A DNA stretch of 6,540 nucleotides from a bacterium (GTDB lineage: Bacteria; Pseudomonadota; Gammaproteobacteria; Burkholderiales; Thiobacteraceae): the NCBI GenBank assembly GCA_027438535.1, contig DAIAMA010000075.1, positions 1 through 6,540 of the forward strand, given 5' to 3'. Of this stretch, positions 1 to 1,532 are shown piece after piece. Under the pieces are notes generated by a model. It worked only from the letters and a program-made list of their open reading frames with translations. It was not told the DNA's origin and did no database searches. Numbering within the stretch: position 1 is the stretch's first letter; each line of letters starts with the position of its first letter. The position numbers were made by a program, and so were the translations under genes.

Positions 1-142
1 ATATAAACGCAACAACGTGTTAAAAACCGAAGTGACCAGCCAGGATGTGGCCGAATTGGCCGCCGAGTTGTGCGGGGTGCTATTCGCCAAGACCACCGCT
101 GCGCAAATCCCGGTGGATGGCGGAAACGATAGGGTGATTTGA
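1..142 (+). CDS. C-terminal end of bifunctional aldolase/short-chain dehydrogenase (partial, cut by left edge)
   Basis: The frame starting at base 2 is open from the window edge and gives 46 residues before a TGA at 140-142. It contains LKTEVTSQDVAEL, then KTTAAQIPVDGGNDRVI. A valine/threonine-then-DVAE helix followed by a TTxxxIPVDGG strand is the standard C-terminus of Rossmann-fold short-chain dehydrogenases, and this version resembles the SDR half of fused class II aldolase/SDR proteins (about 670-700 residues). The catalytic Ser-Tyr-Lys and the NAD-binding glycines would lie left of the window. Only one base separates its stop from the mtnA start, so the two were translated together. The matching aldolase N-terminus lies on the opposite strand at 1029-1532, which suggests one gene split by a rearrangement. 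That it is a fusion rather than a stand-alone SDR is inferred from that second piece. Confidence 0.75.
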   Translation, partial: YKRNNVLKTEVTSQDVAELAAELCGVLFAKTTAAQIPVDGGNDRVI

Positions 143-143
143 T

Positions 144-1484
144 ATGGCTAGCTCGATGGTAGAAACCCTGCGTTGGCAGGGCGCAAGGCTGGAGATGATA
201 GACCAGCGCGTCTTGCCCGCCCGAATCGAGTATCTCGCCTATGATTCGGCGGCGAGCGTGGCGCAAGGCATTCGCAGCATGGTGGTGCGGGGCGCGCCGG
301 CCATTGGCTGTGCGGCGGCTTATGGCGTGGCGTTGGAAGCGCTCAGCTTGGCGCCATCCAATTCCGGCGGGCAGTTCACGCAGCAGCTTGAAGCCGGTTT
401 TGATGTGTTGGCGCACAGCCGCCCTACGGCAGTCAACCTATTTTGGGCGTTAACGCGCATGCGTCGTGTGTGGCAAGCCATGGGCGCGCTCGATCCTCTT
501 CAAGTTGCACAAAGGCTATTAAATGAAGCGCATGAGATTTTGGCGGAAGATGTGCGTATTAACCGCGCCATGGGTGAACACGGAGCCTTGTTGTTGAAAA
601 ATGAGGCGCGGGTGCTGACGCATTGCAACGCCGGGGCGTTGGCGACGGCGGGACATGGCACGGCCCTAGGCGTGATTCGCTCAGCGGTCGAGGCAGGGAA
701 GCGCATCGCCGTTATCGCGGATGAGACCCGCCCTTTCTTGCAGGGCGCACGTCTCACGGTATGGGAGATGATGCAGGAAGGCATTCCGGTGACACTGATC
801 ACCGATGGCATGGCGGGGCATCTGATGAGCCGGGGAGAAATCGATGCGGTCATCGTCGGCGCGGATCGCATTGCGGCGAATGGCGATGTCGCGAATAAGA
901 TCGGCACTTACATGGTCGCGGTGCTGGCGCAGCGCCATGCTATCCCATTTTATGTGGCGGCGCCGATCTCGACCATCGATCCCGGCATGGCGAACGGCGC
1001 CGGGATCCCGATCGAAGAACGCGATCCAGCCGAATCCGGGCATCACATAAGGGATAATCACGACCGCGTTGCCATAAATCTCGCGGATGCGCTGCTCACC
1101 ATGCGCCGTATTGGTCAGCGCAATCACCGCGTCGGCATGGGTATGATCGACATATTTATACGGCAACAGCGCATGCAGGATAGTCTCGACCGAGGGCACA
1201 GGCGCGGAAGCACGCGTCATGTGCGTCACCAGTTCATTCACCATCTGCGGGTCGCTGAGCTGCGGCAATTGCGCCAATTTCAGCATGTGATCGAGCCGCA
1301 CCGGCGCGAAACCCGCCGCCTCGATGTACTCCAAATCCCAGCCGCTGCCTTTGACATAGAGCAGGTCTTCCTCCGCGCCCAGGATATTTTTCTCGCGCAA
1401 TTTCACCGAGGTATTGCCACCGCCGTGCAGCACCAGCGATTTATCGCGTCCCAACAGGCGCGAGGTATACACCCGCAACTGTAA
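144..1484 (+). pseudogene. mtnA: S-methyl-5-thioribose-1-phosphate isomerase, 3' end replaced (real MtnA only 144-1034)
   Basis: MtnA converts 5-methylthioribose-1-phosphate to methylthioribulose-1-phosphate in methionine/methylthioadenosine salvage, in the cytosol. Residues 1-297 match the family well: VRGAPAIG (48-55), THCNAGALAT (159-168) with the expected catalytic Cys161, ETRPFLQGARLT (194-205), and GADRIAANGD (239-248) with catalytic Asp241, then NKIGTY and IPIEER (288-293). After Glu297 the family continues for about 50 residues to a conserved NPAFDVTP-type C-terminus. Here that is absent. Instead the frame runs 149 codons through sequence antisense to an aldolase gene and stops at 1482-1484. 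The ATG at 144 has an AGGGTG Shine-Dalgarno-like stretch at 131-136; Met5 (156) is a less supported alternative. Both active-site residues remain, but the C-terminal strands are lost and the tail is meaningless, so a working enzyme is unlikely. Confidence 0.88.
1029..1034. other. Rearrangement junction between mtnA and inverted aldolase gene
   Basis: Plus-strand reading is good MtnA up to Ala296-Glu297 (GCC GAA, 1029-1034) and foreign after it. Minus-strand reading is good class II aldolase down to Phe167-Gly168, which uses the same six bases (TTC GGC), and antisense mtnA after it. The six bases GCCGAA can therefore belong to either parent, as expected for a join at microhomology, although the parental sequences are not in the window to prove it. 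Just before the join lie a perfect 10-bp palindrome (1001-1010, CGGGATCCCG) and a small inverted repeat (GATCG 1010-1014 with CGATC 1022-1026), which may favour fold-back. Confidence 0.8.
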
Positions 1485-1532
1485 ATCACCTGAATAGCGG
1501 GCGGCTTCTTGATCGTTCCACAGACTTTGCAC
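1029..1532 (-). pseudogene. N-terminal part of class II aldolase domain of bifunctional aldolase/short-chain dehydrogenase (truncated)
   Basis: About 168 codons of a class II (zinc) aldolase/epimerase-type domain can be recognised. They include HGGGNTSVK (36-44, phosphate-binding loop), YVKGSGWDL (59-67), the conserved SVETILHALLP helix (114-123) and the HTHADA motif (130-135), whose two histidines are zinc ligands. The version with HGGGNTSVK and KGSGWDL is typical of long proteins fused to an SDR domain. The start is a GTG at 1532-1530, fixed by an in-frame TAA five codons upstream and supported by GAGG (1538-1541) five bases before it. After Gly168 the frame runs on to 681 only as antisense of mtnA. 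The third zinc histidine and the whole dehydrogenase half are missing. The gene follows gmhB by 40 bp and was probably the next member of that operon. Its likely C-terminal end lies on the plus strand at 1-142. Confidence 0.85.

Follow-up and report, generated by a model that had tools for sequence, protein, structure and literature searches.

In the counts that we draw on from the report of Lasken and Stockwell (2007; PMC1855051), 406 of 475 chimeras formed during multiple displacement amplification (MDA) were inverted, and 337 of those 406 joined segments lying less than 10 kb apart. At least two complementary bases were present at the joint in 76.8% of these chimeras, and among joins of less than 10 kb, direct ones numbered 11 of 348 in the same counts. 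Here we describe a bacterial contig in which a truncated mtnA gene runs head-on into a truncated gene for a bifunctional aldolase/SDR, and we consider it very probable that this joint is an in-vitro chimera from DNA amplification, not a real inversion.

The window, by which we mean the whole stretch of 6,540 nucleotides that was analysed, is the complete contig C470 of draft G000 (1,748,319 bases, 497 contigs, 66.15% complete). Its features are as follows.

2..142, plus strand: the last 46 codons and stop codon of an aldolase/SDR gene, truncated by the contig end; bases 2-139 encode residues 612-657 of protein P0132 with 100% identity
144..842, plus strand: mtnA codons 1-233, an allele like that of relative G004; DNA identity 87.6% to G004 and 75.5% to draft contig C456
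843..1034, plus strand: mtnA codons 234-297; 192 bases 100% identical to the intact mtnA on C456
1031..1034, no strand: the inverted joint, with at most 4 bases in common (CGAA), from comparison with the C456 mtnA and the antisense aldolase of four relatives
1035..1484, plus strand: the tail of a 446-aa fused ORF, which is aldolase antisense and not a protein domain, without Pfam or NCBIfam domain
1032..1532, minus strand: codons 1-167 of the bifunctional aldolase/SDR (NF006196 residues 1-169); 165 of 167 residues are identical to P0130, and likewise to P0132
1573..2127, minus strand: gmhB, D-glycero-beta-D-manno-heptose 1,7-bisphosphate 7-phosphatase (NF006506, 195.2 bits, cut-off 178)
beyond gmhB, all minus strand: a NUDIX hydrolase, an L-2-hydroxyglutarate oxidase-like protein, an epimerase, a nucleotidyl transferase and a DegT aminotransferase

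Both genes at the joint are incomplete. The 446-aa ORF (144-1484, plus strand) matches TIGR00512 (salvage_mtnA) with 383.5 bits against a cut-off of 279, over profile positions 2-296 of 335 only, and its Pfam IF-2B match stops at residue 297. A full-length MtnA domain with its C-terminus is therefore absent from the window, whereas the mtnA on C456 covers positions 2-334 of 335. On the opposite strand, the 283-aa ORF (681-1532, minus strand) matches NF006196, the bifunctional aldolase/SDR family, at residues 1-169 of 657, and its Pfam Aldolase_II domain is cut at position 132 of 183. Aldolase and SDR domains do not share a frame here, the NF006196 match reaching 293.9 bits against a cut-off of 831. 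These profiles bear out the first-pass annotation, which had placed the loss of mtnA family character after codon 297 and, at the same point on the opposite strand, the beginning of an aldolase N-terminus; it had also correctly seen the SDR C-terminus directly before mtnA on the other strand. The DNA of that C-terminal piece is 91.6% identical to G004.

At the DNA level, identity between the window and the intact C456 mtnA stops exactly at base 1034, and at aldolase residue 168 the window has G where P0130 and P0132 have D. The joint occupies 1031-1034, of which 2-4 bases are ambiguous. Three of the four relatives have TCGAA here in the antisense aldolase, and mtnA has CCGAA; the bases common to both sides number four (CGAA) if the last phenylalanine codon is TTC, as in those three relatives, or two if it is TTT. 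Either number would lie within the 2-21 complementary bases expected at the joint of an inverted MDA chimera, with the species' own aldolase codon taken from the relatives. Of the 360 proteins retrieved, none matched the residues of the fused ORF past the joint (best E 0.91), and when the window was compared with its own reverse strand, matches near the joint did not exceed 23 bases. We infer that the cell itself lacks this 446-aa fused frame.

The order of these genes in relatives indicates from what the window was derived. In G004 (contig C325), gmhB, a 657-aa aldolase/SDR and mtnA lie complete on one strand, spaced by 6 and 1 bases, and G003 (contig C99) has gmhB, a complete aldolase/SDR and mtnA codons 1-116, after which the contig ends. 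In the window, too, gmhB is the upstream neighbour of the aldolase, which it adjoins also in G003 and G004. In G002, the N-terminal part of the aldolase stands at the end of one contig, and SDR followed by mtnA at the end of another. The parent order gmhB - aldolase/SDR - mtnA in one direction, which had been proposed from the window's letters, thus occurs complete in G004 and in part in G003. In G005 (C95; L121, L127), one strand carries both mtnA and aldolase/SDR, with about 15 kb and other genes between them, so their adjacency is not universal in the genus; G001, G006 and G007 gave no match to mtnA or to aldolase/SDR. With breakpoints set on the G004 order and the lengths of proteins P0132 and P0001, the inverted block measures 2,365 bases, a distance that derives from a relative's gene order and from protein lengths. 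The geometry proposed in the first-pass annotation is supported, and its figures are refined, from about 2.4 kb to 2,365 bases for the block, from 1029-1034 to 1031-1034 for the joint and from about 680 to 657 residues for the aldolase/SDR. As a side observation, G003 contains two different SDR - mtnA pieces (L117 1-1297 and L118 1-592), both at contig ends, with DNA identities of 92.6% and 90.6% and with mtnA pieces 90.6% identical; these are either second copies or mixed strains.

A joint with exactly this geometry is also what a real inversion predicts. On that account, a block of about 2.4 kb would have been turned round in the cell, or in a sub-population, between aldolase codon 167 and mtnA codon 297 by microhomology-mediated repair or replication template switching, with loss of both genes, and the short overlap at the joint suits microhomology-mediated events as well. 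We regard such an inversion as unlikely, partly because of the intact alleles that we found. A protein search with the fused ORF returned P0001, an intact MtnA of 351 aa that is identical to the window at 294 of residues 1-297, and a search with the G003 aldolase/SDR returned P0132 and P0130, both intact at 657 aa and each identical to the window at 165 of the 167 N-terminal residues; P0132 is identical to the window's C-terminal aldolase/SDR piece as well. The longest contig of P0001 and that of P0132 each measure 107,336 bases, and the two are presumably one and the same contig. The draft itself holds another, complete mtnA on C456 (protein P0011). Furthermore, only one of the two joints that an inversion creates is seen, although nothing contradicting an inversion was found from the other side of the block. 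Searches with Pfam PF00596 and with P0132 did not find the aldolase/SDR middle elsewhere in the draft, nor was the missing mtnA C-terminus of the window allele found there; the draft likewise has no second copies of the window's right part or of the other genes on C456.

Sequence from past the joint was in none of the 240 matches listed for the two chimeric ORFs (120 of 8,000 and 120 of 5,738), a weak indication that chimeric relatives are absent, since the window's own fused ORF is also missing from those 240. Fifteen of the 120 listed alignments to the fused ORF pass the joint slightly, to residue 335 at most, the six furthest, at 68-70% identity, being mtnA alignments that are drawn out.

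The window's mtnA is itself a mosaic. Bases 1-842 are closest to G004, C456 being only about 75% identical there within mtnA (about 75-80% for its mtnA contig over bases 23-842), and bases 843-1034 are 100% identical to C456 against 81% to G004. P0132 and P0001 are built similarly: between about residue 440 of the SDR and residue 206 of mtnA, they lie nearer to G004 than to P0130 and P0011, outside that tract they are near-identical to P0130 and P0011, and past residue 206 the C-terminal part of P0001 is identical to P0011, the C456 protein. In the window the G004-like tract extends 27 codons further into mtnA than in P0001. From these patterns of identity, homologous recombination seems to have brought in a tract of roughly 1.3 kb, and because a similar mosaic is intact in P0001 and P0132, that of the window looks like natural recombination. 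The mosaic is an ordinary feature and distinct from the head-on joint. We considered that the assembler might have switched from one species to another at base 843 and rejected this, as the intact P0001 is a mosaic of the same kind, which is more simply read as a natural recombinant allele. The two contigs of the draft that carry mtnA (window position 1; L003 position 7053) each stop within 17 bases of one and the same position in the SDR C-terminus.

Other contigs of this draft carry local copies at their ends. After 19 of 102 draft contigs that consist of N throughout had been dropped, 83 readable contigs remained, a non-random sample made up of runs of contig numbers plus C199, C344, C464 and C493, and nine of their 166 ends, on eight contigs (as read: L149, L152, L154, L155, L175, L187, L192 and L217), repeat a stretch of their own contig. 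The four single contigs had been added after appearing in the P0132 search, and C199 is among the eight with an end copy. Six of the copies are inverted (C466, C472, C1, C199, C483 and C102) and lie 0.4-2.8 kb from their partners, and three are direct (C469, C478 and C102). By comparison, six of 8,300 random interior points had a second copy (five inverted), four of the six being the partner copies of ends, and the difference between ends and interior for inverted copies is significant (p = 2e-8). A looser first form of the end test gave the same nine ends, with 13 of 4,100 interior points having a second copy. Set beside other assemblies, the draft shows an excess of inverted ends that is suggestive only, at 6 of 166 versus 0 of 101 (Fisher p = 0.086), the 101 control ends comprising 61 from other assemblies, taken under a slightly looser rule, and 40 of G004. 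The 40 ends of G004 have no end copies of either kind, and direct copies are not in excess in the draft (3 of 166, against 3 of 101 controls, all three among the 61 ends). Two direct copies have a length of exactly 77 bases, which is what a graph assembler with k = 77 would leave. A response regulator on L152 (3-566, minus strand) runs straight into 77 bases copied from ispF, at the start of its contig. No exact overlaps between contig ends were found among the 62 draft contigs compared. On C483, rpiA is cut to profile positions 99-220 of 223 and is followed by ppx sequence that is inverted and copied from a site 1.3 kb away, the same picture as at the window joint. A single real inversion leaves these inverted local joints at the ends of other contigs unexplained. 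Together with the near-identical intact alleles, they speak against the real inversion destroying both genes that the first-pass annotation had favoured, and they point to an alternative listed there, a fold-back or displacement-amplification chimera.

A k-mer assembler is by itself incapable of a join through 2-4 bases, which requires that a chimeric molecule arose, whether in the tube or in the cell; the recurrence of inverted local copies at the draft's contig ends favours the tube. A chimera made by amplification is favoured by the one-strand parent order, the intact alleles, the inverted end copies and the published MDA signature. While the whole genome was being amplified, a newly copied aldolase strand would probably have come off its template and re-primed, via the 2-4 matching bases, on the opposite strand in mtnA about 2.4 kb away, from where copying would have continued in the reverse direction; the assembler would then have taken the chimeric molecule as a contig path. 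We infer that MDA or another method of the strand-displacement kind was used on this DNA. Contigs as short as 500 bases, and a file order and lengths that fit a dense numbering by length, suggest that the draft is a single amplified genome. If it represents one cell, its two mtnA alleles imply two copies per genome, two cells or carry-over. Several points count against a chimera. Besides the weak excess of inverted ends over other assemblies and the share of direct copies, the window joint sits within its contig instead of at an end and lacks a duplicated arm; and the aldolase middle and the mtnA C-terminus were not found in the draft, so that a second inversion joint may exist. It is conceivable, but improbable, that an inversion segregates in the natural population of this uncultured betaproteobacterium, on the recombinant allele and beside intact alleles, in which case methionine salvage (MtnA) and the aldolase/SDR would be knocked out in one stroke. 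An assembly error that joined two alleles or paths (window 1-1034 and an aldolase contig) without any chimeric molecule is very unlikely, for even though the draft's two mtnA alleles share an exact 192-base block ending at the joint, a place where a graph branches, and their contigs have nearly coincident ends, the two sides have at most 4 bases in common, far below what a k-mer join requires, and the reverse-strand comparison gave nothing above 23 bases near the joint. Preferring an amplification chimera removes two false findings from consideration, a gene fusion and a double knock-out. Our data suggest that inverted copies of nearby sequence at contig ends are a cheap screen, and in drafts flagged by such ends head-on gene joints should not be trusted without reads.

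Compared with MtnA as described by TIGR00512, the window has residues 1-297, which score above the cut-off (383.5 versus 279 bits), but lacks the last ~50 residues and has antisense aldolase in their place. Of the 657-aa aldolase/SDR of NF006196, its minus strand encodes residues 1-167 and its plus strand residues 612-657, the two ends lying on opposite strands; residues 168-611 were not found in the draft. The MDA chimeras in the counts of Lasken and Stockwell (PMC1855051) differ from our case in that the window joint is known from a contig and not from reads, the amplification of this DNA is undocumented, and three of nine end copies in the draft are direct, against the 11 of 348 given there. 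In other respects the cases agree: the joint unites two segments of one locus that are inverted and, at 2,365 bases in the parent order, separated by less than 10 kb, the intervening stretch is missing, the two sides share a few bases, and similar joints recur within the data set.
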